From: a virus
DNA length: 48,902 nucleotides
Strand: one strand, 5' to 3'
Virus record (IMG/VR): IMGVR_UViG_3300032087_006134
Coordinates: 1 to 48,902 of that record
Under the pieces are notes generated by a model, which saw nothing but the letters and a program-made list of their open reading frames with translations, did not search any database and was not told the DNA's origin. This document shows positions 1-15,005 of this stretch, piece after piece (the first letter of the stretch is position 1; every line of letters begins with the position of its first letter). Both the position numbers and the translations under genes were made by a program.

Positions 1-108
1 ACATTCTGTAGCGACTGGATTAAAGTTATCGACGATACCATCGAAAAACATGGTTCCTGGGACACAAGAAAATCCTACACACCATACACATTCACGGAGA
101 TTAAGTAA
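1..108 (+). CDS. 3' end of an unidentified gene (partial)
   Basis: An open frame runs from base 1 to a TAA at 106-108 and encodes 35 residues ending PYTFTEIK. It is cut by the window edge. The stop overlaps the ATG of the next gene by one base (TAATG), the same coupling seen throughout this locus, which supports it being a real gene end. The fragment is too short to assign a family. Its position next to glycosyltransferases suggests a glycan-related role, but this is only inference. Confidence 0.6.
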   Translation, partial: TFCSDWIKVIDDTIEKHGSWDTRKSYTPYTFTEIK

Positions 109-1370
109 TGAAGACAATTTTAGTTAAAGGACCAGCACTCTCTCGCTCCGGATATGGCGAACAAACTCGATTTGCCCTCCGTGCCTTGCGTGCTCATGAG
201 GAAAGATTTAACATCCTACTTCAGAACATTCCTTGGGGACATACGGGGTGGATTACAGAAACCGGTGAAGAACGAGATTGGTATGATCACTTAATTGGAA
301 AGACTCAACACCACATTAACCAGAAACTGCCTATCGACATATCTTTGCAGGTTACCATTCCGAATGAGTGGGAAAAGATTGCACCAGTTAATATTGGATA
401 TACAGCCGGTATTGAAACAACAAAAGTAGCCCCCCAATGGATTGAGAAGGCTGCCCTGATGGATAAGATTATTGTTGTCTCCAATCATTCAAAAAATGTT
501 TATGAAGAAACCGTTTATGAAGCAACGATTCAGGAGACTGGGCAAAAGACTCAATTCAGGGTCAATACACCAATCGAGGTTGTTAACTATCCAGTACGAA
601 ATCGTGAGGCAGAAAATCTTGATATCAATTTGGATTACGATTTTAACTTCTTATCCGTAGCCCAACTTGGTCCAAGAAAGAACATCGGCAACACACTTAA
701 CTGGTTCCTGCAAGAGTTCCAGAACGAAGAAGTTGGTATGGTACTTAAAACAAATATTGCAAATTGCAGTACCTCTGACTCGCTTCATACTCAAGCAAAG
801 ATCGCAGATCTTCTCGCAACTTATCCAGATAGAAAGTGCAAGGTTTATCTTCTCCATGGGGACTTGACTTTAGGTCAGATGAATGCGCTTTATACAAACC
901 CAAAAGTGAAAGCATACGTAACCCACACTCATGGCGAGGGATTTGGCATGCCTATCTTCGAAGCAGCATATCACGGAGTGCCCGTAATCGCCCCTGCTTG
1001 GAGCGGACAAAATGATTTCCTCCATGCCCATGCTAAAATCGGCAAGCGAAAGAAACCGAAACTACGCGCCCTATTTTGCAAAGTTGATTACACCATCAAT
1101 CAAGTTCCACAAGAAGCAGTTTGGAATGGCGTTATCCAGCCTGATTCTGGCTGGTGTTTTCCAACTGAAGAAAGCGCCAAGAAGACCATGAGAGCGGTTT
1201 ATACAAATTATTCCAAGTACACCGAGATGGCTGATCAACTACAAAAGCACCTTTTAGAAAACTTTACTGAAGAACAACAGTATGCAAAGTTCGCAAATTA
1301 CATTTATCAAGAAGAAACATTTGATGTTGAGAACTGGCTCTCCGCTTTAGATATCGAGGATCATGAGTAA
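108..1370 (+). CDS. Glycosyltransferase, GT-B fold (GT4-like)
   Basis: A 420-residue protein, a usual length for GT-B enzymes that move a sugar from a nucleotide donor to an acceptor in the cytoplasm. The C-terminal donor domain begins near residue 178, with the strand-plus-basic motif LGPRKN (187-192). It holds the hallmark HGEGFGMPIFEAAYHG stretch (275-290), in which E277 and E285 form the EX7E motif of GT4-type retaining enzymes. The N-terminus (KGPALSRSGYGEQTR) resembles the glycine-rich start of these enzymes. The ATG overlaps the upstream TAA, and the 3' end overlaps the next gene by 8 bases, so it is in one operon with the glycan genes downstream. Donor and acceptor are unknown. Confidence 0.88.
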   Translation: MKTILVKGPALSRSGYGEQTRFALRALRAHEERFNILLQNIPWGHTGWITETGEERDWYDHLIGKTQHHINQKLPIDISLQVTIPNEWEKIAPVNIGYTAGIETTKVAPQWIEKAALMDKIIVVSNHSKNVYEETVYEATIQETGQKTQFRVNTPIEVVNYPVRNREAENLDINLDYDFNFLSVAQLGPRKNIGNTLNWFLQEFQNEEVGMVLKTNIANCSTSDSLHTQAKIADLLATYPDRKCKVYLLHGDLTLGQMNALYTNPKVKAYVTHTHGEGFGMPIFEAAYHGVPVIAPAWSGQNDFLHAHAKIGKRKKPKLRALFCKVDYTINQVPQEAVWNGVIQPDSGWCFPTEESAKKTMRAVYTNYSKYTEMADQLQKHLLENFTEEQQYAKFANYIYQEETFDVENWLSALDIEDHE

Positions 1371-2208
1371 AATTATATTCATCGCTGATTTTTTCGCTCA
1401 TGAAATCCCCGGTGGTGGTGAGTTAAACAATCACGAACTTGTGCAGATTTTAAGGAAACGAGGCACTGACGTTTTAGAAATAAAAAGTCAGAATGCCTCT
1501 CCTGCATTTTTACAAGAGCAAGATGATGATACTAAGTTTGTTGTTGCGAACTTTATTGGTCTCACCGAGGCAAGCAAAAACATCTTAAAATCAGAAAAAG
1601 ATTATATTATTTACGAACATGACCACAAATATGTAAAAACAAGAAATCCTGCAAATTATGAAAACTTTATTGCACCAAAAGATCATATAATCAATTTTGA
1701 CTTTTATGAAAGTGCAAAAGCAGTCTTGTGTCAAAGCGACTTTCACGCAGGTATCGTAAAATCAAACTTACATTTGGACAACATAAAAAGCGTTGGTGGC
1801 AACTTGTGGTCTGCTCAAGTTTTAGATTTTATGTACGAGATATCAAAATCTGAAAAGCAAACAACTTGTGCCGTAATGAACTCTGATAACTGGCATAAGA
1901 ACACATCTGACGCAGTAAGGCTCTGTAAAATTAAAGGCTGGGAATATGATCTTATCCCAAGTCTGGCTTACAAGGACTTCTTAACAAGATTAGGCAAGAG
2001 TAAAAAATTTGTTTTCCTACCAAAGACGCCTGAAACATTGTCCCGTATCGTGGTTGAGGCAAGAATGATGGGCTTATCAGTGATAACAAACAATCTTGTC
2101 GGTGCAACAAAAGAAGAGTGGTTCTCACTCAAGGGCATCGAGTTAATCAACATCATGACCGAGAAGAGAAAACAAATTCCAGACTTAGTAGAGGCGGTGT
2201 TAAAATGA
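1363..2208 (+). CDS. Glycosyltransferase, GT-B-like
   Basis: A 281-residue protein. Near the N-terminus it has a GT-B-like loop, HEIPGGGELNNHEL (13-26). Near the C-terminus PETLSRIVVEARMMGLSVI (223-241) gives an EX7E arrangement (E224, E232), followed by NN as in donor-binding domains. It is shorter than typical 350-400 residue GT4 enzymes, so it may be a reduced form. It overlaps the preceding gene by 8 bases, and its TGA overlaps the next ATG (ATGA at 2205-2208), which indicates translational coupling. Substrates cannot be named from the sequence. Confidence 0.75.
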   Translation: MSKIIFIADFFAHEIPGGGELNNHELVQILRKRGTDVLEIKSQNASPAFLQEQDDDTKFVVANFIGLTEASKNILKSEKDYIIYEHDHKYVKTRNPANYENFIAPKDHIINFDFYESAKAVLCQSDFHAGIVKSNLHLDNIKSVGGNLWSAQVLDFMYEISKSEKQTTCAVMNSDNWHKNTSDAVRLCKIKGWEYDLIPSLAYKDFLTRLGKSKKFVFLPKTPETLSRIVVEARMMGLSVITNNLVGATKEEWFSLKGIELINIMTEKRKQIPDLVEAVLK

Positions 2209-3113
2209 AAGTATATATTAAAAACCATCCTGCTCATGCTGGAAAATGGATATATGAAGGCTATAAAAGAGCATGGACTGCACTAGGGTACGATGTACAA
2301 TATTTCACTAATTTAAGCGAAATAAAAGAAAGTGGTGATTATTATGTTATGGCTACGGACTATGATGTAAAAAATGATAGCTCCTATTCTTCAATTTCAA
2401 ATTCTACGAAAAGTTTTATTTTTGCCCAACCAAACACTTTTCCTGAGCCGTGGGGTCGGCATCCCAATTTTGTTTCCAATGCATCGCCATCAACTATCGA
2501 CTTAATTAATCAAACCGATAATGCTGTGTTGTGGACGTTTTCGGACAATGTTAGTTTTCATACTAAATGGAAGACTGTTCATACTGTTCCATTGGCATTT
2601 GACTCAATCGGATATATTCCAGAGAAGAATGAAGATTATTCTCAGTATGATATCTGTTTTGTTGGTGGGTGGGCTAATAATGGCTTCGATGAAAAAAGAA
2701 AAATAATGATTGAGATATTTTCGAAGTTTATGGATTCTGGACTTAAATGTGGCTTTTTTGTCAACAAGAATTTGACACATGAACAAGAGTGCAATTTGTT
2801 ATACAATAGTAAAACAGCACTAAACATACATGATGCATATCAAAGAGTATTAGGATGTGATACCAATGAAAGAACTTTTAAGTCTCTTGGGTTAAATGGT
2901 GCCTTAATATCAGATAAAATACAACAGTTAAATAAGTTGTTCCCAGAAGTCCCTACGTCATTAAGTGCTGATACGTTGGTTAGTGATACTAAAAAAATAT
3001 TATCCTTGACAAAGAATGAAATTCGTGGTATAAAAGAAAAGAACAAACAAAATATTTTGGATAAACACTGTTACACGAATAGAGTAGAGCAGCTTTTAAA
3101 AATAGGGATATAA
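2205..3113 (+). CDS. CgeB-like glycosyltransferase
   Basis: A 302-residue protein from the ATG at 2205. The frame stays open further upstream, but 2205 is preferred because a purine-rich GAGGCGG lies just before it and it forms an ATGA overlap with the preceding stop. The C-terminal half carries the CgeB/Glyco_trans_1_2 signature: a FVGGW strand (152-156), then NIHDAYQRVLGCDTNERTF (207-225) and a GALISDK strand (232-238). In this family the NER-F-E/K region belongs to the nucleotide-sugar binding domain. The base composition looks more AT-rich than the aminotransferase and Gmd genes further down, which hints at separate acquisition. The related gene at 7964 is probably a paralog. Confidence 0.8.
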   Translation: MKVYIKNHPAHAGKWIYEGYKRAWTALGYDVQYFTNLSEIKESGDYYVMATDYDVKNDSSYSSISNSTKSFIFAQPNTFPEPWGRHPNFVSNASPSTIDLINQTDNAVLWTFSDNVSFHTKWKTVHTVPLAFDSIGYIPEKNEDYSQYDICFVGGWANNGFDEKRKIMIEIFSKFMDSGLKCGFFVNKNLTHEQECNLLYNSKTALNIHDAYQRVLGCDTNERTFKSLGLNGALISDKIQQLNKLFPEVPTSLSADTLVSDTKKILSLTKNEIRGIKEKNKQNILDKHCYTNRVEQLLKIGI

Positions 3114-3117
3114 AAAA

Positions 3118-3864
3118 ATGAGTGAAAGTATCAGTGTGGATATTATCATACCATGCTACAATGGTGCTAAATTCTTAGAACAGAGCATTCTTTCTGCTTT
3201 AAACCAAACGTACCAGAATACAAGAGTATTGTTTGTAGATAATGAGAGTACAGATGATAGCTTGTCTGTTGCAAAAAGAATTCAAGAGCAAAATCCAGAA
3301 TTAGTTGTCTTAGAGTCACCTAATTTATACGAATATTCATGGCAAGAGCCAGTATCTGTTGCTATGAAAAACTGCAACGGTGAATACTTTACTATTTTAG
3401 CAGCAGACGATTATATAGGACCAGAATATATTTCAAAAATTGTTGCCATTGTTGAAAAAACGCAGAGAAAAATTAAAGTTTTGCAATCTCCAATTCTTGG
3501 CTTCTCCTCTCAGACTAATAGCAGGTTGGATGGTCTGATATCTCATTCATACAAAAGTATTGATGAATTCAGAATGTTGCTTTTTAAAAAGTGCCCAGTA
3601 AATACTCCAACTGTTTTTTATTCCAGAGAATTATACGATAACGGTTTAATACAGTGGAAGTCGGAAATTTATAAAGGCTCTGGAGATTATAACTGTTATT
3701 TTAATTTGACGGATAATAATATTTTTGTTTACCCAGTTCCAGTGTGGTTGGGATATCACTATCGTTGGCATCAAGATCAGTCCACCTGGGGTATGCAGAA
3801 AAACTTTAATGGGATAGACTTAAAAATTAAAGAATTCTGGAAACAAAAATGGAATATGCCATGA
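3118..3864 (+). CDS. Family 2 (GT-A) glycosyltransferase
   Basis: A 248-residue protein with the classical GT2 start: VDIIIPCYNGAKFLEQSI (7-24), a VDNESTDDS nucleotide-binding segment (40-48) and AADDYI (95-100), which supplies the metal-binding DXD-type aspartates D97 and D98. GT2 enzymes are inverting and use nucleotide-diphosphate sugars. No membrane segment is visible, so it is probably a soluble cytoplasmic transferase acting on a growing glycan or a protein. Start ATG 3118 follows AGGGATATAAAAAA, a reasonable ribosome site. Its TGA overlaps the start of the TPP enzyme at 3861. Confidence 0.9.
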   Translation: MSESISVDIIIPCYNGAKFLEQSILSALNQTYQNTRVLFVDNESTDDSLSVAKRIQEQNPELVVLESPNLYEYSWQEPVSVAMKNCNGEYFTILAADDYIGPEYISKIVAIVEKTQRKIKVLQSPILGFSSQTNSRLDGLISHSYKSIDEFRMLLFKKCPVNTPTVFYSRELYDNGLIQWKSEIYKGSGDYNCYFNLTDNNIFVYPVPVWLGYHYRWHQDQSTWGMQKNFNGIDLKIKEFWKQKWNMP

Positions 3865-5618
3865 TAAATGTTGCTGATTATATAATCAAGTTCTTGCAAG
3901 AGAGGGGAGTAAAATACGCTTTTCAAGTCACTGGTGGTGGAGCGATGTTTTTAAACGACGCTGTTGAAAAAAGCAATATTAAACCAATTTTTTGCCATCA
4001 TGAACAATCTTGTGCTATGGCGGCTGTTGGGTATACTAAAGTTACCAATGAGCCTTCTTTAGTTATTCCAACTTCTGGGTGTGGAAGCACTAACACAATC
4101 ACTGGTATTCTTGATGCATGGCAAGACAGTCATCCAGTTATTGTTGTTTCTGGGCAAGCAAATAAGAAAGACACAACATACCTGTCCTCATTGCCACTGA
4201 GAAAATTGGGAGTGCAGGAGGTTAACATAATTGAGATTGTAAAATCAATTACGAAATTTTCAACTATGATTACAGAACCTGAAGATGTAGCGATCATAAT
4301 GGAAAAAGCTTTTCATATTGCCACATCTGGCAGGCAAGGTCCAGTTTGGATTGATGTCCCACTTGATGTACAAAACTCTATAATTGATGAAGAGAAGTTG
4401 GCTCACTGGTCTAATAAAGATGTTGAGGATAACGAGGACGGCGTAAGTGAATTTGAAGCTTTTTTAAAAAACTCAAAACGACCAGTGGTAATTGCCGGGA
4501 ATGGAATCAACTCAGCAGATGCAAGAAAAGAGTTTGTTGAATTTGTAGAAAAGTACAACCTGCCATGCACTTTTACATTTTTAGCGACTGATCTATTAGA
4601 TGCAGAACATCCACTGTATATTGGAAGGTTGGGCATAAAAGGAACTCGCGCTGGCAATTTTGCAGTGGCGAATGCTGATTTAATTATTAGTATTGGAAGT
4701 TCCCTTAGCATACCTTTAGTTGGTTATCGTTATGAGTTTTTTGGCAGAGATGCAAAAAAATTCGTTGTTGATATCGATAAAAACGAGCATCTTAAAGAAA
4801 CTATCAAAATTGATAAGATTCTACAAATGGATGCACGAAAATTTCTTGTATCTAATATGGAGCACGACTACTCTACCAGCAGTTCTTGGCAAAACAAATG
4901 TTTGCATTGGAAGAATAAGTGGAATGTGTTTGATAGAAACGATATTCGCGAACTTAATATGTACTCCTTCTCTAAAAAATTATCAAGCTTGACAAAAGAT
5001 ATTAACTCTGCTATAATAGCAGATGCTGGTTCGGCTTATTATGTAATGGCGCAATCTGCACAGAATAGTAGAATTATCTTACCAGGAGCACAGGGAGAAA
5101 TGGGGTTCACTTTACCGGCTTCAGTTGGTGTTGCATTAGCAAATAAAGACTTAGAGGTATTTGGTGTTACTGGTGATGGTTCTTTTCAGTTTAACATACA
5201 AGAATTACAAACCATTATGCAATACAACTTACCAATTAAAACTGTTGTACTAAACAATAATGGCTATTTATCAATTAAAAACACTCAAAGAAAATATTTC
5301 AATGAAAGATACTCTGGCACTGAGGCTAACAGTGGTGTTTCTTTCCCCGATTGTTCAAAAATAGCAAAGGCTTATGGTATGAAATATTTTAAGATTAGTA
5401 AGCCTGAACATTTAGATACTGTATTGCCCGAAGTGGTAAAATATGATTCTTATTGTATATGTGAAGTAATATGTCCAGAAACTGAAAACATTGTTCCCAC
5501 CGCAGCCTCTAAACAGAATGCAGATGGAAAAATTGTTTCTCAACCACTGGAAAATATGTTCCCATTTTTATCAGATGAAGAATTTGAACAAGAAATGATT
5601 ATCAAACCTATAGGATAG
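3861..5618 (+). CDS. TPP-dependent acetolactate synthase-family enzyme
   Basis: A 585-residue protein from ATG 3861, which makes an ATGA overlap with the preceding gene; a second ATG at 3849 is possible. The three-domain layout of the acetolactate synthase/YerE family is visible. In the N-terminal pyrimidine-binding domain, HHEQSCAMAAVGY (46-58) carries the catalytic Glu48. The central domain contains RPVVIAGNGI (207-216). The C-terminal domain has GDG at 438-440, then 24 residues, then NNN at 465-467, which is the Mg/TPP-binding motif. Such enzymes decarboxylate a 2-keto acid and pass the acyl unit to an acceptor. In glycan loci the known precedent is YerE, which adds a two-carbon branch to a 4-keto-3,6-dideoxysugar. 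With an E1-type dehydrase and a 4,6-dehydratase in the same locus, a branched-sugar role is a fair inference. True acetolactate synthesis is the alternative. Confidence 0.9.
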   Translation: MINVADYIIKFLQERGVKYAFQVTGGGAMFLNDAVEKSNIKPIFCHHEQSCAMAAVGYTKVTNEPSLVIPTSGCGSTNTITGILDAWQDSHPVIVVSGQANKKDTTYLSSLPLRKLGVQEVNIIEIVKSITKFSTMITEPEDVAIIMEKAFHIATSGRQGPVWIDVPLDVQNSIIDEEKLAHWSNKDVEDNEDGVSEFEAFLKNSKRPVVIAGNGINSADARKEFVEFVEKYNLPCTFTFLATDLLDAEHPLYIGRLGIKGTRAGNFAVANADLIISIGSSLSIPLVGYRYEFFGRDAKKFVVDIDKNEHLKETIKIDKILQMDARKFLVSNMEHDYSTSSSWQNKCLHWKNKWNVFDRNDIRELNMYSFSKKLSSLTKDINSAIIADAGSAYYVMAQSAQNSRIILPGAQGEMGFTLPASVGVALANKDLEVFGVTGDGSFQFNIQELQTIMQYNLPIKTVVLNNNGYLSIKNTQRKYFNERYSGTEANSGVSFPDCSKIAKAYGMKYFKISKPEHLDTVLPEVVKYDSYCICEVICPETENIVPTAASKQNADGKIVSQPLENMFPFLSDEEFEQEMIIKPIG

Positions 5619-5622
5619 AAAA

Positions 5623-6450
5623 ATGAAAAATACTACAATTGCTGGTAAATGGCATGGTAAAAGATATTATAAAGATGAACAAGCCAAGACATTTAAAACA
5701 TTAGTCGATGAATTAAAAAACGTCAACGACAAATATAATGTTATTGGGATCAAACAGTCATTTGAGGATGAGGGTGCTCAACTCGATGATGTACTTACTA
5801 TGAGAAGAATAACTGAACTATGTGACATGTCAATGTATGTTAAGATTGGAGGCTGTGAGGCTATAACCGATATTAACAATTGCGTAAATATGGGCATAAA
5901 CAACTTGATCGCCCCGATGGTTGAGACTGAGTATTCTTTTAAAAAGTTCATAACATCTGTTAAAAATATAAAGAATACAAACTTTTATTTTCTTTGTGAA
6001 ACTAAGACGGCTTATGAGAACTTGGATAGTATTTTGGAGTCTGAAGAGGCTTCTTGTTTATCGGGCGTGATTGTAGGTAGATCTGATTTTACTAAGTCAT
6101 TTGGACTTGATAAGGAACAAACTGATAGCGCTTTCATAATGGAAAAAGTAAGAGATGTCTTCACCAGGGTTAAGAAAAAGAATCCATTGCTAAAAACAAC
6201 TATGGGAGGAAATATCTCAGTTAACAGTTCCAATTATATTAGAGATCTATACAACGACGGCGTTTTAGATAAGATTGAGAGCAGGAATGTTGTTGTGGAA
6301 CTAAACGACCAAAATGTTGATAACTTTGAGCAAACTGTATCAGCCATGTTATCTTATGAAATTAGCTGGTTAGAGTTTAAAGCAATAAACTATGGTGGAA
6401 TCTGCGACTCATATATAAACAGAATTAGGACTTTAGAGAAAAGAATATAA
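5623..6450 (+). CDS. HpcH/HpaI (citrate lyase/aldolase) family protein
   Basis: A 275-residue TIM-barrel-type protein. Family features in order: VKIGGCEAITDI (73-84), a NNLIAPMVETEYS segment (93-105), LCETKTAYENLDSIL (124-138) with the metal-ligand position Glu126, and VIVGRSDFTKSFGLD (149-163) with Asp155 as the second metal ligand. HpcH/HpaI enzymes catalyse metal-dependent retro-aldol or aldol reactions with pyruvate or acetyl groups. The start at 5623 has AGGA 7 bases upstream. It sits directly between the TPP enzyme and the iron-sulfur protein, so the three probably act on one pathway. It could generate or use a pyruvate-derived unit in an unusual sugar, which is inferred. The substrate is unknown. 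Confidence 0.82.
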   Translation: MKNTTIAGKWHGKRYYKDEQAKTFKTLVDELKNVNDKYNVIGIKQSFEDEGAQLDDVLTMRRITELCDMSMYVKIGGCEAITDINNCVNMGINNLIAPMVETEYSFKKFITSVKNIKNTNFYFLCETKTAYENLDSILESEEASCLSGVIVGRSDFTKSFGLDKEQTDSAFIMEKVRDVFTRVKKKNPLLKTTMGGNISVNSSNYIRDLYNDGVLDKIESRNVVVELNDQNVDNFEQTVSAMLSYEISWLEFKAINYGGICDSYINRIRTLEKRI

Positions 6451-7607
6451 TGACCAATAGGTTTTTAGATCTTAAAAACATTTTAAATGCAGAAAAGTGC
6501 TTTAAAATGATTTGCGGCGCTGGTAACGAAGATAAAGAGCAGGTTAAGAAATATGCATTTATCTATACGCTTGCCGGTGCAAAAATACTTGACGTTTCAG
6601 CAAACGTTGATGTAGTCAGGTACGCTATGGATGGCATTGACTTGGCTTTTAAGAAAGCCGAAGAGCTTAAGTTGGATATTGGAATCCGACCATATATTAT
6701 GGTGAGTGTTGGAATGCCCGGTGATCATCATGTTAGAAAATCTTACATAGATCCTAATACATGCATATCTTGTGGGTTATGTGCCCCTGTGTGTCCTACT
6801 GAGGCTATTCCGTTTGACTTTCATAAAAACCTAGATTTCTTTAAGTCTCTCGGCGGCTCTTATGAAACAGAAGATCAGACTAAAGAAATTGTATACAAAG
6901 ATAGGTGTATAGGGTGCGGTAAATGTAGTAATATATGCCCCAAGGAAGACATAATTTCGTATCGACATAATGACAGAGAGCTAAGAGAGCTTCTTCCACA
7001 GTGTATGGAGGCTGGAGCAGAGTGTTTTGAACTACATGCGGCAGTAGCAGACGATGATGTGATATTAAAAGAATGGCAAATGATTGTAGAATTGAATCCT
7101 AATAATTTTAATTCAATGTGCTTAGATAGGTTACATTTGGGAAACTTTAATCTTGAACATAGAATAGAAAAAGTTAAAGACATTTCGCAGGACAAGGTAA
7201 TCATTCAAGCTGATGGATACCCTATGAGTGGAGGACAAGATGACTATAACACCACTCTACAAGCAGTATCTTGTGCTGATGTTATAAATAAGAAATTTAA
7301 TATGTTTCAAAACAAGAAAAGAGAGGGAGGGAAAATTCACTCTAAGATGATCTACAGAAAGCTTTCCGATAGCAGAACTATCCCAATTATCCTCTCCGGT
7401 GGCACTAACTCAAACTCTAAAAGCTTATCTAACATGAGCGGAGTCCGCGTTAATGGGGTAGCAATCGGCACATATGCTCGAAAAATTATCGATGAATATG
7501 TAGCCCACCCTGAATTTTACACAAATGAAGAAATTGTCTTGTCTGCTTACAGTATTGCAGAAACACTCGTACAGGCAAATATTGGAGAAACTTATGACAA
7601 AAGATAA
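6450..7607 (+). CDS. LdpA-like protein with two [4Fe-4S] clusters
   Basis: A 385-residue protein. The N-terminal part (FKMICGAGNEDKEQVKKYAF, 18-37, then TLAGAKILDVSAN) matches my memory of the start of LdpA/DUF561, a barrel-like domain. Two complete ferredoxin motifs follow: CISCGLCAPVCP (105-116) and CIGCGKCSNICP (153-164). The C-terminal segment has QADGYPMSGG (253-262) and ILSGGTNS with GVAIGTYARK (314-345), which match the LdpA C-terminal domain. LdpA is a redox-active iron-sulfur protein known from cyanobacteria, where it affects the circadian clock. Here it sits between an aldolase and a phosphatase in a phage glycan locus (TAATG overlap with the aldolase). An electron-transfer role in sugar deoxygenation or host redox modulation are both possible; neither is shown. 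Confidence 0.85.
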   Translation: MTNRFLDLKNILNAEKCFKMICGAGNEDKEQVKKYAFIYTLAGAKILDVSANVDVVRYAMDGIDLAFKKAEELKLDIGIRPYIMVSVGMPGDHHVRKSYIDPNTCISCGLCAPVCPTEAIPFDFHKNLDFFKSLGGSYETEDQTKEIVYKDRCIGCGKCSNICPKEDIISYRHNDRELRELLPQCMEAGAECFELHAAVADDDVILKEWQMIVELNPNNFNSMCLDRLHLGNFNLEHRIEKVKDISQDKVIIQADGYPMSGGQDDYNTTLQAVSCADVINKKFNMFQNKKREGGKIHSKMIYRKLSDSRTIPIILSGGTNSNSKSLSNMSGVRVNGVAIGTYARKIIDEYVAHPEFYTNEEIVLSAYSIAETLVQANIGETYDKR

Positions 7608-7953
7608 AAAACTTACAATTGCTGTTGATTTTGACGGAACTCTATGTGAATACGCCTTTCCAGAAATTGGCGAGCAAACTGAAGAGCAAAAAAAATTAAT
7701 GGATGCACTCATTGAACTTCGTAGGGATGGGAACAAATTAATCTTATACACTTGTAGAGGCGATAACGATGAATATCCTTGTCTAACACAAGCAGTTGAG
7801 TGGTGTAAGAAAAAGGGATTGGAGTTTGACTCTATTAATTCAAATGTTCCGGGTTTTGTTAAAAAGTCAGGTCCGAGTCCAAAACCAGTGGCTGATATTT
7901 ATTTAGATGACAAAGCTGTCAATGTTACAGATTGGCGTACTCTTTTGAATTAG
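7594..7953 (+). CDS. Small HAD-superfamily phosphatase (BT0820-like)
   Basis: A 119-residue protein from ATG 7594, which has GGAG 6 bases upstream. The frame stays open to 7525, but the longer N-terminus lies inside the previous gene and is not needed. HAD motifs in order: IAVDFDGTLCEY (9-20) with nucleophile Asp12 and Asp14, LILYTCRG (49-56) with motif-II Thr53, and DIYLDDKAVN (101-110) with the Mg-binding acidic pair Asp105/Asp106. No cap domain is present. Such minimal HAD enzymes dephosphorylate small metabolites such as sugar or keto-acid phosphates. It overlaps the LdpA-like gene by 14 bases, so it belongs to the same module and may remove a phosphate from that pathway's intermediate (inference). 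Confidence 0.85.
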   Translation: MTKDKKLTIAVDFDGTLCEYAFPEIGEQTEEQKKLMDALIELRRDGNKLILYTCRGDNDEYPCLTQAVEWCKKKGLEFDSINSNVPGFVKKSGPSPKPVADIYLDDKAVNVTDWRTLLN

Positions 7954-7963
7954 GTATTTGTTG

Positions 7964-8866
7964 ATGAAAATATTACTTACATCTAATAAAACATATCGTG
8001 GTTCGCTAGATGGTAGTTGGTGGTATTTTTACTTACCACTTCAGTCATTAGGGCATGAAGTGTATTTTTATGACACAGTTTCAGGTGATGACAAAACCTA
8101 TACCGAAATCGTTGAAAGTTTTAAACCAGAACTAATTTTTTGCATTCTGACCGGAGATCCCAATATTGCACCAAAAGAGCCATGGAACGAAATAGCCAAG
8201 GAGACACAAACAGGTAGAACAAAGACATTTAATTGGTTTTGTGATGATACATGGAGGTATAACAACTTTTCAAAAAAAGTGTGTCACTATTTTAATGTAT
8301 GTTCAACTCCTGAAAGATTTAGGGTTGACGATTATCAAAAAGATGGTTATAATAATATAATCGTTGCTAACTGGCACACTAACTCTGATTTTTATCAACA
8401 AAAGAGCTTCAGAGATAAAGTGAACAATATTGCTTTTATAGGCTATCCGACACCATCAAGAAAAATGTTCTTTGATAAAACTGGAGTACCCGTAACATTT
8501 TTGAGTGGTATTACACAGCAGCAACTTTTTGAAGAACACTGTAACACGAAGATCGGCATCAATTTATCAAAAAATGATAATGATCCGTCCAAGAGCACTC
8601 AAATGAAACAAAGAATATTTGAAATTCCAGCAGGTGGTGGGCTTTTAATGACTGAATACCATAAAGGTATTGAGGAATACTATAAGATTAACAATGAAAT
8701 TATTACTTTCTCAACAATTGACGAATTCACACAGAAAGCAAAATATCTCTTAAAAAACCCCGCAATTTGTGAAAAGATATCCCACAATGGGTACAAAAGA
8801 TTTCTTAAAGAGCATGAATCTAAAATTAGATTATCGAAAACATTAGATAAAATTATAAAAATATGA
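7964..8866 (+). CDS. CgeB-like glycosyltransferase
   Basis: A 300-residue protein. ATG 7964 is chosen over the upstream in-frame TTG codons at 7958 and 7961; a weak AGG lies 9 bases upstream. The C-terminal half shows the CgeB/Glyco_trans_1_2 pattern: IGINLSKNDNDPSKSTQMK (197-215), RIFEIPAGGGLLMTEY (217-232), then a helical tail. This is the same architecture as the gene at 2205 with limited identity, so the two are probably diverged paralogs or independently acquired members. The N-terminus (MKILLTSNKTYRGSL) is a Rossmann-like start. The last bases form an ATGA overlap with the SDR gene at 8863. Donor and acceptor are unknown. Confidence 0.8.
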   Translation: MKILLTSNKTYRGSLDGSWWYFYLPLQSLGHEVYFYDTVSGDDKTYTEIVESFKPELIFCILTGDPNIAPKEPWNEIAKETQTGRTKTFNWFCDDTWRYNNFSKKVCHYFNVCSTPERFRVDDYQKDGYNNIIVANWHTNSDFYQQKSFRDKVNNIAFIGYPTPSRKMFFDKTGVPVTFLSGITQQQLFEEHCNTKIGINLSKNDNDPSKSTQMKQRIFEIPAGGGLLMTEYHKGIEEYYKINNEIITFSTIDEFTQKAKYLLKNPAICEKISHNGYKRFLKEHESKIRLSKTLDKIIKI

Positions 8867-9705
8867 AAATACTCATAACAGGTGGTAACGGCTTTCTTGC
8901 AAGGGAGTTGGCGTCTTATTTTACGTCCAACTCCCACAATGTTATTACAACAAATCGTAACTCTCTTGATCCTACAAATTATGAAAACGTAAAAGCGTTT
9001 TTCGAACATGTAGAGGTTGACGCTCTGGTTCACACTGCGGTTAAAGGTGGAAGGCGAGGGCATCAAGAGAACATGAAAGATATGCTTGATAACCTTGCGA
9101 TGTTCCACAATCTTCGATCATTTTCACACAAATATAAAGTGATGTTTAATTTTGGTTCTGGTGCGGAGTTTGACAGGACAAAGAACATCAGCAAGGCAGA
9201 GGAGCCAAATATATTCAATTCTCTGCCCGCTGACTATTACGGACTGTCCAAAAACCTCATATCAAGAGATATAATACAAAAGTGCGATAATGCATATAAT
9301 CTTAGGCTTTTTGGCTGCTTTGGCGTCAACGAAGAGCCACAGAGATTATTTAAGGCAACACACGATAGGTTTATCAATGGAAAAGATGCTGTAATTCATC
9401 AAGACAGATGGATGGACTATTTTTATGCCCAGGATGTTGGAAAAGTTATAGAACACATTTTTGAGAATAGAGCAGATAATATCCCAAAAGATATTAACCT
9501 CTGCTATCGGGAAAAATATAAACTCAGCGATTATGTGAACAAAATAAAAAACTTGATGAATGTTGATCTTGGTGTTATAATACAAGACAATACATATGCA
9601 TATTCTTATGATGGCAACGCAGAAAGACTGCAAAGCTTAAATATAAACTTACATGGATTAGAAAAAGGATTACAGGAATGTCTGAAAAGTTGGAACAAAT
9701 CTTAG
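8863..9705 (+). CDS. NAD(P)-dependent sugar epimerase/reductase (extended SDR)
   Basis: A 280-residue protein with the N-terminal Rossmann motif TGGNGFLARE (6-15), a GSG containing the catalytic-type Ser99, and Tyr126-GLS-Lys130 forming the YXXXK pair. Length and order fit the NAD-dependent epimerase/dehydratase family acting on nucleotide sugars. It is short in the C-terminal substrate domain compared with typical 310-340 residue members. It lies directly before the RfbH-like dehydrase, overlapping it by 28 bases. It may therefore reduce or epimerise a 4-keto-deoxysugar made by that enzyme, much as YerF-type reductases act after YerE (inference). Confidence 0.85.
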   Translation: MKILITGGNGFLARELASYFTSNSHNVITTNRNSLDPTNYENVKAFFEHVEVDALVHTAVKGGRRGHQENMKDMLDNLAMFHNLRSFSHKYKVMFNFGSGAEFDRTKNISKAEEPNIFNSLPADYYGLSKNLISRDIIQKCDNAYNLRLFGCFGVNEEPQRLFKATHDRFINGKDAVIHQDRWMDYFYAQDVGKVIEHIFENRADNIPKDINLCYREKYKLSDYVNKIKNLMNVDLGVIIQDNTYAYSYDGNAERLQSLNINLHGLEKGLQECLKSWNKS

Positions 9706-11009
9706 AATTGGTTTCTGAATATATTGGTGAGAAAGGTGATGACTGGAAACCCGGCGAAGATTGGGTTAGTTACTCTGGTCCTCATTATGATGAAAAAGAA
9801 TATCTTGCGGCAATTGAAGTGCTGCTGGATGGTTGGCTAATCTTCGGAAAGAATGCGCGAGAATTTGAGAAGCAGTTCCCAGTTCACCTGGGCATGAAGC
9901 ATGGATCACTAACCAACTCTGGCTCCTCCGCCAATCTTCTTGCCGTAGCAGCCCTCAAGTCCAAGAATGGATATAACCTTCCAGAGGGCTCGAAGATTAT
10001 CACACCAGTTGTTTGTTTCCCAACAACGATTAATCCAGTTATTCAGAGTGGGTTTCAGCCGGTATTTGTTGACGTGACCTTGCCCGATTTAAATCCCGAT
10101 TTGGATCAGGTAGAGAGACTTCTTGAGAGCGACCCTGAGATTCGTGGGATTATGTTCGCTCATGTTCTCGGCAACCCTCCCGACATGAATCGTTTGATGG
10201 CGCTTGTAGAAAAGCATGATCTTATTTTTGTTGAGGACGCTTGCGATGCACTTGGCTCTTATTACGACGGTAAGAAACTTGGCTCATTTGGACATATCTC
10301 AACATGCTCCTTTTTCCCCGCTCACCATATGACGATGGGTGAGGGTGGATTTGTTGCGACCAATAGCGGCAAGATTCGTAAAGCCGTTGCGAGCATTCGT
10401 GACTGGGGACGCGCCTGTTATTGCAACACCTCCAAGCCAGGTAATGTTACTGCTGGAACTGCTTGCGGAAACAGGTTCAAAAACTGGCTAACTGGTATGC
10501 CTGAAGCGGTTTACGATCACCGCTACGTTTTTGATGAAATTGGATATAATCTCAAGCCTCTTGACTTGCAAGCAGCCATGGGCTTGCAGCAGTTAAAGAA
10601 GTTACCAGACCTTGATGCGGCTCGTCGAAAGAACTTCGCAATCCTACAGGAAATTTTTAAACCTTACGAGAAGTACCTTCATCTTCCACAGGCAACTGAA
10701 CTTTCTGATCCTTGCTGGTTTGCTTATCTGCTCACTGTAAAAGAGGACGCCCCATTTGATAGGGCAGATATTGTTGATTATTTGGAGAACGAGAAGATTC
10801 AGACTCGCTCTTATTTTGCAGGCAATATTCTTGCTCACCCTGGTTACAGGCATCTTGCCGAGCCTTATGGAGACTTAAACTCCATGTTCCCCGTCGCAGG
10901 ATTGGTGACTACAAACTCTTTCTTCCTCGGCACGTTCATTGGTTTGACCGAAGAGAAGCTTGCATACATCAAGAAGGTTGTTGATTCCTTCTTCGGGGCG
11001 GTGCGATGA
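9678..11009 (+). CDS. rfbH-like: RfbH/E1-type sugar 3-dehydrase (DegT family, [2Fe-2S])
   Basis: A 443-residue DegT/DnrJ/EryC1-family protein of full RfbH length. Two features mark it as the E1 dehydrase of 3,6-dideoxysugar synthesis rather than an aminotransferase. The PLP-lysine position is histidine in FFPAHHMTMGEGG (212-224, His216 equivalent to E1 His220). The cysteine series C189-X57-C247-X1-C249-X13-C263 follows the E1 [2Fe-2S] spacing C-X57-C-X1-C-X7-C, with six extra residues in the last interval. The conserved region from FKNWLTGMPE to GYNLKPLDLQAA (267-300) also matches RfbH. E1 removes the C3 hydroxyl of a 4-keto-6-deoxy nucleotide sugar using PMP and electrons from a partner reductase. 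No standard E3 gene is visible here. The gene is clearly richer in G+C than its upstream neighbours. Confidence 0.92.
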   Translation: MSEKLEQILELVSEYIGEKGDDWKPGEDWVSYSGPHYDEKEYLAAIEVLLDGWLIFGKNAREFEKQFPVHLGMKHGSLTNSGSSANLLAVAALKSKNGYNLPEGSKIITPVVCFPTTINPVIQSGFQPVFVDVTLPDLNPDLDQVERLLESDPEIRGIMFAHVLGNPPDMNRLMALVEKHDLIFVEDACDALGSYYDGKKLGSFGHISTCSFFPAHHMTMGEGGFVATNSGKIRKAVASIRDWGRACYCNTSKPGNVTAGTACGNRFKNWLTGMPEAVYDHRYVFDEIGYNLKPLDLQAAMGLQQLKKLPDLDAARRKNFAILQEIFKPYEKYLHLPQATELSDPCWFAYLLTVKEDAPFDRADIVDYLENEKIQTRSYFAGNILAHPGYRHLAEPYGDLNSMFPVAGLVTTNSFFLGTFIGLTEEKLAYIKKVVDSFFGAVR

Positions 11010-11953
11010 AGATCGTATACGTCACAGGCTGCCTTGGATTTATCGGCTCTTACGTTACCAGAAAATGCCTCCAAAGGGGCTGGATGGTGTATGGTATTGA
11101 TAAGTGTACCTATGTTGCAAATCGAGGACTATTAGAAGAGTTTGGTCAATACGATAACTTTACTTTTTTAGAAAAAGACATTAAAGATCTTGACCATCTT
11201 TACGATTGCGATTATATTATTAATACTGCTGCTGAGTCTCACGTCGGAAACAGCATTATCGATAGCGAGGACTTTATTAGCAGCAATATCATGGGTGTTC
11301 GTAACCTGCTCGACTTGGTTCGTAATAAACCTATCAATTGCAACCGTAGACCGATTATGTTCCACTTTAGCACTGATGAGGTTTATGGAGATATTGTTGA
11401 GGGTGAACACACGGAAGAACACTTACTACACCCCAGCAACCCTTATTCAGCCGCAAAAGCCGCCGCAGACATGCTTGTACTGGCTTGGGCAAGAACTTAC
11501 AATATAGAATATATTATTTTACGCCCAACAAACAACTACGGTATTGGACAATATCCAGAAAAACTGATTCCCCTCTCGGTAAAGAATATGATGCGAGGGC
11601 TCAAGATTCGTCTTCACAACAATGGTACACCTATTCGAAACTGGCTTCATGCCGACGACACAGCCGAAGCAGTCATGGCGATTATTGACTCTGGTAATAT
11701 TAACGAGATTTATAATGTAGCCGGTGGCTTTGAACAGACAAATGCCGAGACTGTTAGAAAAATAATAACCGCACACCACAGTACAGATAATTGGGAACAA
11801 TATGTTGATTTTTCATATTCTCGTCAAGGACAAGATGTCCGATATGCTTTAAATGACGATAAACTAAGGTCTCTCGGCTGGAAACCTAAGAAGATTTTTG
11901 ACGAGGAGATTGCATCAATCGTCGAACACTATAAAACAAACTTTATTTGGTGA
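11006..11953 (+). CDS. Nucleotide-sugar 4,6-dehydratase (RmlB-like SDR)
   Basis: A 315-residue extended SDR. It has the Rossmann loop GCLGFIG (8-14), the dehydratase triad segment FSTDEVYGD (121-129) with Thr123-Asp124-Glu125, and YSAAK (Tyr147, Lys151), followed by RPTNNYG (173-179). The TDE motif identifies a 4,6-dehydratase that makes a 4-keto-6-deoxy sugar nucleotide. The pattern is closest to dTDP-glucose 4,6-dehydratase, but the nucleotide (dTDP, CDP or UDP) cannot be fixed by eye. Its ATG overlaps the RfbH-like stop (ATGA at 11006-11009), so the two are expected to work in sequence: 4,6-dehydration first, then C3 deoxygenation. Confidence 0.88.
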   Translation: MKIVYVTGCLGFIGSYVTRKCLQRGWMVYGIDKCTYVANRGLLEEFGQYDNFTFLEKDIKDLDHLYDCDYIINTAAESHVGNSIIDSEDFISSNIMGVRNLLDLVRNKPINCNRRPIMFHFSTDEVYGDIVEGEHTEEHLLHPSNPYSAAKAAADMLVLAWARTYNIEYIILRPTNNYGIGQYPEKLIPLSVKNMMRGLKIRLHNNGTPIRNWLHADDTAEAVMAIIDSGNINEIYNVAGGFEQTNAETVRKIITAHHSTDNWEQYVDFSYSRQGQDVRYALNDDKLRSLGWKPKKIFDEEIASIVEHYKTNFIW

Positions 11954-11960
11954 TGTCGCG

Positions 11961-12794
11961 ATGAAAAAAATAGCTTGCGTTATATATTTTTTTGGAAAAA
12001 GATACGAAAAAATAGGCTTATGTGCGATTAACAGTTTTAAAAAATTTCATCCTGATATTGACCTGATTCATGTTAATGAACATAATGGTGATGAATATAC
12101 TGCAACCAAAAGTCTACATGAGGTGGGACATGGAGCGTATAAATATTTGTTAGCCGCTGAGATAATGCTTAAACACAAATATGATAAGGTTATTATTTTA
12201 GGTGCAGATACAATAACATGTTCACGCTTGGATGAATTCATAGAAGGCGAAGAAGATATTTTAGCCACCTTGGATTATCCATACAGATTAGAAATTCCCA
12301 GAGGCAATCCGATATGCCCAGATTCTGAGACACATGTAAATGCAGATGTTGTATGTTTTAATAAAGTTGAGCCAATTTTAGATATTGTTAAAATTGCAAA
12401 AAGATTTGGACCATACGCTGAACAGGGTGCTTTAAATTACGTATTGTGGTCTGGAAATTATGAATATTCTCATAAAATAGTGGACGGACCATACAATAGT
12501 AGCGAGGTTGTTTACAACGCAAGAGCGAAAGGTAACATAGCCGCAGGTCCAGGCGAAAAACCATGGGCACAGTATACAAATCAATTTTATGTTAAAGACG
12601 ATAAGCTGTTCACATTCGATAACAAAAATGTTAAAGTTTGGCATTATTGTGAGGGCTTTGGAGCATTGCCTGAACAAATGTTTATAGACTTAATGAACAA
12701 CTGGGTTAACCACTGGTTTAATGACGAAACTAAGGCATTTTTTAAGAAAGAATGTGATTGTGGTGACTTCTTTGAACAAGATTTTGCATTATAG
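11961..12794 (+). CDS. GT8-like (GT-A) glycosyltransferase
   Basis: A 277-residue protein from ATG 11961. The frame is open to 11898, but that part lies inside the dehydratase gene. GT8/glycogenin-like features: an N-terminal strand (IACVIYFFGKRYEKIG, 4-19), ILGADTITCSRLDEF (79-93) with a D-type metal site, HVNADVVCFNK (125-135), an EQGALNYVL helix (154-162), and a late histidine in VKVWHYCEGFG (224-234), like the HYxG element that contacts the sugar donor. The start lacks a clear Shine-Dalgarno site; it is 7 bases after the previous stop and may rely on coupling. The gene is AT-rich compared with its neighbours on both sides. Confidence 0.72.
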   Translation: MKKIACVIYFFGKRYEKIGLCAINSFKKFHPDIDLIHVNEHNGDEYTATKSLHEVGHGAYKYLLAAEIMLKHKYDKVIILGADTITCSRLDEFIEGEEDILATLDYPYRLEIPRGNPICPDSETHVNADVVCFNKVEPILDIVKIAKRFGPYAEQGALNYVLWSGNYEYSHKIVDGPYNSSEVVYNARAKGNIAAGPGEKPWAQYTNQFYVKDDKLFTFDNKNVKVWHYCEGFGALPEQMFIDLMNNWVNHWFNDETKAFFKKECDCGDFFEQDFAL

Positions 12795-12809: not shown

Positions 12810-13718
12810 ATGGAAAAGTATAAAACAGTTTTAGTTACAGGAGGCAGCGGCTTTTTAGGAAAGCGGCTGGCTTTACAGAAGCCAAACTGGATTTATGCCT
12901 CATCGGCTGATTGTAACTTAACAGACTTTCGCGATGTATGTTCTTACATCGAAGACGTAAAACCTGACGCCATCGTACACTTAGCAGCACGGGTCGGAGG
13001 CATAAAAGACAATTCAGAGAGACAAGCAGATTATTATTTGCAAAATACATTAATTAACACCAACCTGCTGCATGCAGCGCACTTGGCTGGTATTGACCGA
13101 ATCTTATCCTCCTTGAGCACCTGCGCCTTTCCGAACGAGGTCAATGAATATCCACTTACCGAAGAAAAGATATTTGATGGTCCTCCCGCTGTAACTAACT
13201 TTTCATATGGTTACACAAAACGCGCTTTACATGTCCAGTCTGTATCCTACAGAAATCAATACAATAGAAATTATTCAACCTTTGCACCATCAAACATATA
13301 CGGTCCAGAGGATCACTTTAATACCGATAAGTCTCATTTTGTTCCCGCGTTGATATCAAAATTAATTTCAGCAGATAATGGTTCAGAAATTGAGTTATGG
13401 GGAACAGGCGCACCTTTAAGGCAGCAGTTGTATATTGATGACTTAGCGGCAATCATTCCTATACTGCTTGAGAAGCATAATACCGATGTTCCATTAATTG
13501 TTGCACCAGACGAGAACTTATCAATTAAGGAGATGGCTAACATCGCTTTAAGTAAATTTGAAAAGAATATTAAAATAAGTTATAATGGTAAACTAGATGG
13601 GCAATATCGGAAAGATGGTAGTAATAAAAAACTTATTGACTTAATTGGTGAGTTTGATTTTACATCTTTTGATTCCGGCGTTGAGAAAACCATTAGATGG
13701 TACATGGAGAATAAGTGA
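12810..13718 (+). CDS. fcl: GDP-L-fucose synthase-like epimerase/reductase
   Basis: A 302-residue SDR close to the family's usual length. Features: [11 protein letters not shown] (10-20); [15 protein letters not shown] (58-72), characteristic of the WcaG/Fcl family; [10 protein letters not shown] (101-110) with the conserved Cys105 general base/acid; YGYTK (Tyr133, Lys137); and SHFVPALI (175-182) with His176. Cys and His at these positions match the epimerisation residues Cys109/His179 of the E. coli enzyme. The enzyme converts GDP-4-keto-6-deoxymannose to GDP-L-fucose with NADPH. It is directly followed by Gmd with a GTGA overlap, so the two-step pathway is intact. Related outputs such as colitose-type sugars cannot be excluded. 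Confidence 0.85.
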
Positions 13719-14689
13719 AGACAGCATTAGTAACAGGCATCACCGGACAGGACGGTTCCTATTTGGCGGAACTGCTTTTGGACAAGGGCTATAAAGTTAT
13801 CGGAGTGAAGAGACGTACTTCTTTGATCAGTACGGACAGGGTAGATCATTTAATAAATAATGAAAACTTTATTTTAGTTTATGGAAACCTAAACGACTCG
13901 GGCTGTATGCACCGACTGCTGCTTGAGCACAAGCCCGATGAGATTTATAACCTTGCTGCTCAATCGCACGTCCGTGTTTCTTTTGAGACTCCCGAGGAGA
14001 CAACCGAGTTTGTAGCGCTGGGTACACTTCGTCTTTTGGAGGCATATCGCAATGTATGCCCTGAAGCGAAGTTTTATCAAGCATCCTCGTCCGAAATGTT
14101 CGGAGATAATCCAGAACATCCGCAGAGCGAAACCACAAGACTAACACCAGCCAGCCCTTATGCTTGCGCGAAGGTATATGCTCATAATCTTTGTAGAAAT
14201 TATAGAGAAAGTTATGGGCTCCATATTTCCAGCGGCATCCTATTTAATCACGAGTCTCCCCGTCGTGGAGAGACATTTGTTACCCGTAAAATCACCCGTG
14301 CAGCAGCCCGTATTAAAATGGGACTACAGGACAAGCTTTATTTAGGTAACCTCGATGCTAAGCGAGACTGGGGCTTCGCAGGAGACTACGTAGAGGCAAT
14401 GTGGATGATGTTGCAACAAGAGCAGGGCGATGACTATGTTGTAGCTACAGGCGAGACTCATACAGTTAAAGAATTTTTAGAAGTGGTATTTGAGCACGCA
14501 GGACTTGATGTAAATGAATATGTTGAGATTGATGAACGTCTGTTCAGACCACACGAAGTTCCGCTACTACTTGGAGACCCCTCAAAAGCCCACCGAGTTC
14601 TTGGGTGGGAACCAAAAACAAGATTCGAGGGTCTTGCAAAGATGATGTATGATGAGGATTTAAAGGAAATAAAAAATGAGAAGAGTTGA
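13715..14689 (+). CDS. gmd: GDP-mannose 4,6-dehydratase
   Basis: A 324-residue protein with strong Gmd features: [15 protein letters not shown] (8-22), [14 protein letters not shown] (33-46), [18 protein letters not shown] (79-96), [10 protein letters not shown] (122-131), YACAK (149-153) and [17 protein letters not shown] (177-193). It uses NADP and turns GDP-D-mannose into GDP-4-keto-6-deoxymannose, the Fcl substrate. The start is GTG 13715 inside the TGA of the fcl-like gene (GTGA), with GGAG upstream in ATGGAGAATAA. The order here is fcl then gmd. No GDP-mannose pyrophosphorylase is in the window, so GDP-mannose must come from the host or from outside the window. Confidence 0.95.
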
Positions 14690-15005
14690 AAAGCCCTGGG
14701 GTTATGAAATTATTTGGGCAGAAACAGCAGATTATGTTGGTAAAATCTTACACATTAATGCTGGACACAGGCTTTCCAAGCAATACCACAACATCAAAGA
14801 AGAGACGCTTTATGTTTTAGATGGTACACTATGCAACTACGATAAAAATGACAAAACACAGCACTTTCAACCCGGAGAGGCATTTCACGTTGTGCCAGGG
14901 CAGATACATCGATTTGGTGCTCTTCAAGAAGATGTAGAGGTGGTTGAAGTCAGCACGCCTCACTTAGATGATGTCGTTAGATTAGAAGACGATTACACAC
15001 GATAG
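14676..15005 (+). CDS. Cupin, mannose-6-phosphate isomerase type II-like
   Basis: A 109-residue single-domain cupin. It begins with KPWGYE (6-11), a hallmark of the phosphomannose isomerase domain of bifunctional ManC/AlgA proteins. The first cupin motif, [15 protein letters not shown] (30-44), supplies Gln36, His38 and Glu43; the second, PGQIHRFGA (74-82), supplies His78. These are the usual metal ligands. The C-terminus ends EDDYTR, like the ED-YGR end of that domain. Only the isomerase part is present; the nucleotidyltransferase half is missing. It probably supplies mannose-6-phosphate towards GDP-mannose. AAGGAA lies 6 bases before the ATG, and the 5' end overlaps gmd by 14 bases. Confidence 0.82.

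Follow-up and report, generated by a model that had tools for sequence, protein, structure and literature searches.

The 48,902-base IMG/VR virus record IMGVR_UViG_3300032087_006134, taken over its whole length and referred to here as the window, carries four contiguous and intact genes inside a block of glycan genes. They encode a YerE-like carboligase dependent upon thiamine diphosphate (ThDP; thiamine pyrophosphate, hence "TPP" for this gene and its relatives), a divergent HpcH/HpaI-fold protein (HpcH*), an LdpA-like TIM-barrel protein with two [4Fe-4S] motifs, and a small HAD phosphatase. We propose, with a probability of roughly 60%, that, in a phage pathway leading to a C4-branched deoxy sugar of a surface glycan, these genes make the donor and carry out the branching. 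All four are on the forward strand, at 3861..5618 (TPP), 5623..6450 (HpcH*), 6450..7607 (LdpA-like), and 7594..7953 (HAD). A preliminary description of this DNA had reported them as consecutive and overlapping or closely spaced, which is borne out; the HpcH* and LdpA genes, for example, overlap by 1 base. Judging by its marker genes (a late-sigma-like gene, baseplate wedge genes, a Holliday junction resolvase, and a primase-like gene), the source of the window is a tailed, probably myovirus-like phage.

The TPP protein contains the Pfam N, M, and C domains of its family (3e-28 to 6e-36) as well as the catalytic residues Glu48, GDG438-440, and NN465-466. An alternative upstream ATG is present at 3849, and a start at either ATG overlaps the preceding glycosyltransferase gene. 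The closest PDB structure is JanthE (8rph; 1e-104, 354 bits versus 245 bits for the runner-up), a YerE-like enzyme that couples ketones with 2-oxo acids (PMC12188165), whereas the plant, yeast, and E. coli acetolactate synthase (AHAS) structures reach at most 227 bits. The protein thus appears closest to the carboligases that add 2-oxo acids to ketones, and ketone acceptance is predicted. Among these enzymes, ErwE has a preference for 4-hydroxy-2-oxo acid donors and uses CDP-4-keto-3,6-dideoxyglucose as a substrate, while the donor preference of YpYerE is pyruvate; a nucleoside diphosphate (NDP)-linked 4-keto-3,6-dideoxyhexose is the acceptor in both yersiniose and erwiniose synthesis (PMC12247030). 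Matches of the TPP protein in "phage" records were AHAS-like with ≤32% identity; many come from short or oversized records that probably represent DNA of bacteria, and these matches were set aside. Among the 49 viral TPP enzymes from the loci described below (numbered with an L), the ThDP/Mg motif reads GEG rather than GDG in seven, six of which belong to LdpA-type loci; GEG-type genes occur in L004, L007, L010, L014, L017, and L025, while JanthE has CDG and the window has GDG.

Genes suited to making such an acceptor lie a short distance downstream. An RfbH-type Fe-S/pyridoxamine phosphate 3-dehydrase (9678..11009, +; NF011936, 460 bits, cutoff 423) is followed by an RmlB-like NDP-hexose 4,6-dehydratase (11006..11953, +; TIGR01181, 4e-88, 295 bits, cutoff 365). 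When aligned to 3bcx, the solved CDP-4-keto-6-deoxyglucose 3-dehydrase, RfbH retains both the histidine (H220) in the position of the pyridoxal phosphate lysine and the four cysteines (C193/C251/C253/C261) that we take to be the [2Fe-2S] ligands, as in 3bcx/3bb8. From their families, the two enzymes together should give an NDP-4-keto-3,6-dideoxyhexose. An RmlD-like SDR (8863..9705, +; PF01370, 8e-21) immediately precedes RfbH, and most TPP loci have an SDR of the same group close to the module.

The HpcH* protein only just passes the HpcH_HpaI Pfam cutoff (26 bits versus 25), and its structural model (pLDDT 89) has its best fold match among HpcH/HpaI pyruvate aldolases (Foldseek E 6e-9). It retains the metal carboxylates E126 and D155, whereas K74 and E50 stand where ordinary HpcH aldolases have Arg and His (profile alignment, 98% probability). 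Because K74 and E50 are near-invariant (84 of 87 HpcH* homologues), they indicate a different active site rather than a dead gene. The earlier statement that the catalytic residues of all four proteins are intact therefore holds for TPP, for the cysteines and barrel of LdpA, and for HAD, while for HpcH* it extends to the metal carboxylates and not to the usual Arg/His pair, which is replaced.

The LdpA-like protein has two ferredoxin-type [4Fe-4S] motifs and matches LdpA_C with 30 bits, but with 137 bits it falls far under the cutoff of 450 for NF045992, the model for cyanobacterial circadian LdpA. It is modeled as a TIM barrel with a ferredoxin-like Fe-S insert of low confidence, and a Foldseek search with it returned generic TIM barrels only. 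To define its conserved residues, we compared 88 glycan-type and other non-canonical sequences with 28 canonical Cyanobacteriia LdpA sequences, the latter found by profile rather than by pattern, and scored a residue as kept when it was present in all rows, or all except one or two gapped rows, of both sets. Besides the eight Fe-S cysteines, this identified K19, D48, D92, H94, K97, E194, H196, Q253, D255, GGTN317-320, and R344, while E27, R227, Q271, and S316 distinguish the non-canonical set from the canonical one. For the sequences found by pattern, conservation inside the ICGAGNE and GMPGDxHV search motifs is biased by the search, and the other positions are unbiased. The GGTN/GxxxGxxAR site resembles the common phosphate-binding site of TIM barrels, and its candidate ligand is either flavin mononucleotide or a sugar phosphate. 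Its Fe-S clusters and conserved barrel, along with the aldolase-fold protein and the phosphatase that are often encoded beside it, suggest that LdpA performs redox chemistry on a small phosphorylated molecule, which is the least sure step of our proposal. LdpA was found only in cyanobacteria in a survey of 11,264 genomes, where it is treated as a redox sensor (PMC5520375), and a 2026 review lists its mode of action as unresolved (PMC13421787). HpcH* was absent from 95 of the 96 Cyanobacteriia genomes of the canonical LdpA set, with a weak match in the other. As detailed below, LdpA-type proteins extend beyond cyanobacteria to viruses and other phyla, where this Fe-S TIM barrel is conserved and partnered with an aldolase-fold protein. 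The HAD open reading frame spans 7525-7953, but its homologues begin at the ATG at 7594, so this is most likely the true start. The protein has no Pfam match and does not reach the NF046079 (BT0820) cutoff of 165 (75 bits, 6e-21; also phrog_1238), and its DxD and terminal DD motifs are readable in the translation.

Scans of viral contigs identified 21 loci for LdpA and 103 for HpcH*, while an alignment-based LdpA scan of genome contigs yielded 67 loci, compared to none with a single LdpA sequence as the query; neither protein had a match among 50,697 phage records. One of the viral loci, L142, lies on a contig that equals the window in length (48,902 bases) but consists of different DNA. HpcH*, LdpA, and HAD lie directly next to one another in 19 further viral contigs, and likewise in four from bacterial metagenome-assembled genomes (Chloroflexi, two Pelagibacteraceae, and one labeled Flavobacteriales with a viral gene order), so the arrangement is more than chance. 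The Flavobacteriales contig (L031) has the gene order of viral loci L019-L023 and is probably a viral contig in a bacterial bin. All four genes occur together in 10 non-redundant viral contigs (L003, L004, L006, L011, L012, L014, L015, L017, L097, and L104), which clearly dispels the possibility raised in the preliminary description that they never co-occur elsewhere. The TPP gene of L015 is split over two frames, and in some of the four-gene loci TPP and HpcH* are separated by an SDR or by a conventional HpcH aldolase. The HpcH*-LdpA-HAD module also occurs without TPP in both viruses and bacteria, and marine and groundwater bacteria carry LdpA within HMGL-LdpA-HAD-HpcH-KdsB clusters. Five Prochlorococcus loci (L037, L039, L041, L042, and L045) have tandem LdpA pairs accompanied by a single HpcH* gene or by two, in some cases together with HAD, HpcH, and KdsB-like genes, and this tandem arrangement suggests that HpcH* and LdpA act as pairs. 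In L003, a FAD/NAD(P)H reductase gene right behind the module (L003:9525-10247) might supply electrons to LdpA or RfbH. In a sheep rumen bacterial contig (L064:5383-9550), rfbF-rfbG-rfbH-ldpA stand in a row, with ldpA at the usual reductase position. About 28 non-redundant viral contigs (L120-L172; e.g. L126:8046-13967) have instead the order RmlB, HpcH*, a FabG-like SDR, an AroB-like phospholyase (TIGR04425), a YerE-like TPP, and an SDR, with RfbH nearby in most; these cassettes are apparently a separate and larger group of phage branched-sugar pathways.

Neighboring genes were then scored in 71 non-redundant viral HpcH* loci. Of the 49 loci with TPP, RfbH is present in 41 (p 1e-6) and RmlB in 42, while there is zero overlap between TPP and the 13 loci with a KdsB- or NeuA-like synthetase for cytidine monophosphate (CMP)-ulosonates (p 9e-9). 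LdpA (22 loci) and the AroB-like phospholyase (28 loci) are also mutually exclusive (p 9e-7), and HAD accompanies LdpA in 22/22 loci and the AroB-like gene in 0/28, which fits a phosphate-removal role for HAD because an AroB-type phospholyase would expel the phosphate itself. The presence of LdpA is independent of both TPP (p 0.27) and RfbH (13/22 LdpA loci versus 33/49 others, p 0.59). We read this pattern as HpcH* producing a phosphorylated 2-oxo acid that is processed by one of three finishers (LdpA+HAD, SDR+AroB-like, or HAD alone) and passed to one of two consumers (a TPP carboligase or a CMP synthetase); a 2-oxo acid is proposed because it is the simplest kind of compound that a CMP-ulosonate synthetase could share with a ThDP decarboxylative ligase.

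Trees were built for the 23 loci holding all of TPP, HpcH*, RmlB, and RfbH, which fall into three insert types. The number of insert-type changes needed was 2 for TPP, which is the minimum, compared to 4 for HpcH*, 6 for RmlB, and 7 for RfbH (shuffled means of ~10, minima of 6-7). TPP thus goes with the donor module to a greater extent than do the acceptor genes. Individual loci illustrate this exchange. L118 shares the glycan cluster of the window (RfbH 73%, RmlB 72%, and glycosyltransferases 40-55%), whereas its donor part is an HpcH*-HAD-TPP of another type with a TPP only 35% identical to that of the window and no LdpA; L004 has the window-type module (TPP 65%). L025 has a window-type TPP (68%) and HpcH* (64%), but its ldpA is cut to the first 29 codons (L025:9001-9760), behind which come sequence unrelated to ldpA and a HAD of another kind. 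The arrangement resembles a recombination scar left by an exchange of LdpA and HAD.

From gene content and order, residues, patterns of association and exclusion, and trees, we infer the following reactions, substrates, and products. The RmlB-like enzyme would convert a host NDP-glucose into a 4-keto-6-deoxy sugar, from which RfbH would remove the 3-OH to give the NDP-4-keto-3,6-dideoxyhexose. In parallel, HpcH* might condense a phosphorylated aldehyde with a pyruvate unit, yielding a phosphorylated 4-hydroxy-2-oxo acid (a 3-deoxy-2-ulosonate). LdpA would make an Fe-S-dependent redox change on this compound or its precursor, and HAD would take the phosphate off the HpcH* product. The YerE/ErwE-like TPP enzyme would then decarboxylate the 2-oxo acid and transfer the acyl anion onto the C4 ketone, after which the SDR at 8863..9705 could reduce the new side-chain ketone and the glycosyltransferases of the block could use the branched sugar.

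Several observations weigh against this proposal. Since HpcH* lacks the Arg/His of HpcH aldolases, its pyruvate aldol chemistry is not assured, and LdpA, whose fold match is a generic TIM barrel, is not known to have enzymatic activity. TPP lies directly before LdpA in L010 with no HpcH* between them, and LdpA is not strictly required, given that L025 has no full ldpA. Within the 16-kb cluster, neither a nucleotidylyltransferase nor an RfbH reductase was recognized, and both must therefore come from the host. The Fisher p-values assume independent loci, and relatedness persists even after near-duplicates were removed by hand; the contrast between the trees could be partly due to the linkage of adjacent genes, and 23 loci are a small set.

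The same data bear upon three other explanations. The TPP donor may instead be plain pyruvate, giving a yersiniose-type acetyl branch, with HpcH*-LdpA-HAD making a separate sugar or acid on the same glycan. In favor of this are the pyruvate preference of YpYerE (PMC12247030), the position of HpcH*-LdpA-HAD next to CMP-ulosonate synthetases where TPP is lacking, the independence of LdpA and TPP, and the occurrence of TPP and HpcH* without LdpA in L025. However, the TPP tree tracks the donor module at the minimum number of changes and the acceptor genes much less so; in addition, no CMP-ulosonate synthetase was recognized in the window cluster, and such synthetases and TPP exclude each other. 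Thus, we regard a pyruvate donor as unlikely, though well short of negligible.

Another explanation assigns the electrons of LdpA to RfbH, an Fe-S enzyme that needs them. With its two [4Fe-4S] motifs, LdpA could replace the E3 reductase RfbI, as the position of ldpA directly after rfbF-rfbG-rfbH in L064 would allow, and the HpcH* and HAD neighbors would be incidental. Yet in viruses the presence of LdpA is not correlated with that of RfbH, no RfbH is present in the fetched DNA of L002, L013, L018-L021, L023, or most bacterial LdpA loci, the constant partners of LdpA are HpcH* (or an HMGL-type aldolase) and HAD, and a pure carrier would have no need of a conserved barrel active site. This role is highly improbable, and it was rejected because LdpA and RfbH do not co-track. 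Finally, TPP could be an AHAS that boosts host branched-chain amino acids, in which case the four genes would be unrelated auxiliary metabolic genes. The top NCBIfam models for TPP are indeed AHAS models, but every AHAS equivalog cutoff is missed (362 bits for TIGR00118 versus 538), the best structure match is YerE-like, no AHAS small subunit was recognized nearby, and RfbH and RmlB each accompany TPP in 41-42 of the 49 loci. The missed cutoffs and the context led us to reject this barely plausible function.

The glycan block as a whole runs from base 108 to ~15,000 in a single forward direction, with most genes overlapping. Upstream of TPP are a GT4-like glycosyltransferase (108..1370; Glycos_transf_1 6e-5, below cutoff), a conserved glycosyltransferase-like cluster gene without a Pfam match (1363..2208), both syntenic in L004 and L118, a CgeB-like glycosyltransferase (2205..3113; Glyco_trans_1_2 8e-9), and a GT2 glycosyltransferase (3118..3864; PF00535 9e-22). 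A second CgeB-like glycosyltransferase follows HAD (7958..8866; PF13524 3e-20). Beyond RmlB are another conserved glycosyltransferase-like gene without a Pfam match (11961..12794, longest open reading frame 11898-12794; homologue in L118), a GDP-fucose synthase-like SDR (12810..13718; PF01370 6e-44), a GDP-mannose 4,6-dehydratase (Gmd; 13715..14689; PF16363 1e-134), and a cupin/mannose-6-phosphate isomerase C-terminal-like protein (14676..15005). With Gmd and a GDP-fucose synthase-like gene, and no nucleotidylyltransferase recognized in the cluster, the phage must draw on host NDP-sugar pools. The preliminary description had also suggested a complete carbon-carbon bond-forming route. A route joining a 2-oxo acid to a keto sugar is upheld, as is its recurring gene order, but "complete" is not, because making the keto sugar takes two enzymes encoded beyond the four genes, the RmlB-like protein and RfbH, in addition to the two activities assigned above to the host.

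If our proposal is correct, branched sugars and ulosonic acids would be served by a new donor pathway, shared by many phages that are uncultured and, among bacteria, by some oceanic ones. The proposal would also provide a concrete biochemical context for LdpA, so far described only as a cyanobacterial clock redox sensor, and the exchange of modules (LdpA+HAD, SDR+AroB-like, or HAD alone; TPP or CMP synthetase) offers natural controls for substrate specificity. More tentatively, and with somewhat less than even odds, the LdpA family may at its root consist of Fe-S TIM-barrel oxidoreductases that, paired with an aldolase-fold protein, produce unusual 2-oxo sugar acids for the glycans of viruses and bacteria. 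The clock LdpA would then be a derived member that has kept most of the active site, and the viral HpcH*-LdpA-HAD a swappable donor module for C4-branched sugars or CMP-ulosonates.

The combination had been presented as one not recognized as a described pathway. For the TPP branching step this does not stand, as it is of a known YerE/ErwE kind (PMC12247030), while for the HpcH*-LdpA-HAD donor module, its viral spread, and the link of LdpA to carbon-carbon bond chemistry we found no description in the open-access literature searched. As in yersiniose and erwiniose synthesis, the window has an RfbH-type 3-dehydrase, a predicted 4-keto-3,6-dideoxyhexose acceptor, a ThDP carboligase of the same group, and a nearby SDR, and the 4-hydroxy-2-oxo acids taken by ErwE resemble the proposed donor. 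Unlike those systems, it is phage-borne, has an RmlB-like enzyme in place of a CDP-glucose dehydratase, apparently obtains its donor from HpcH*-LdpA-HAD, and has no recognized nucleotidylyltransferase or E3 reductase in the cluster. With circadian LdpA (NF045992), the window protein has the eight Fe-S cysteines and barrel residues in common, but it differs in its score and at the four distinguishing positions, and the HpcH* partner is weakly matched in just 1 of the 96 Cyanobacteriia genomes. With class II HpcH/HpaI pyruvate aldolases, HpcH* has the fold and metal carboxylates in common and differs in the Arg/His to K74/E50 replacement. Lastly, the bacterial HMGL-LdpA-HAD-HpcH-KdsB clusters (e.g. 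L033, L036, and L038) resemble the window in that, within a polysaccharide cluster, LdpA is joined by a HAD and an aldolase-type enzyme, but they have an HMGL-type aldolase, a larger HAD, no TPP, and a CMP-Kdo synthetase-like end gene.

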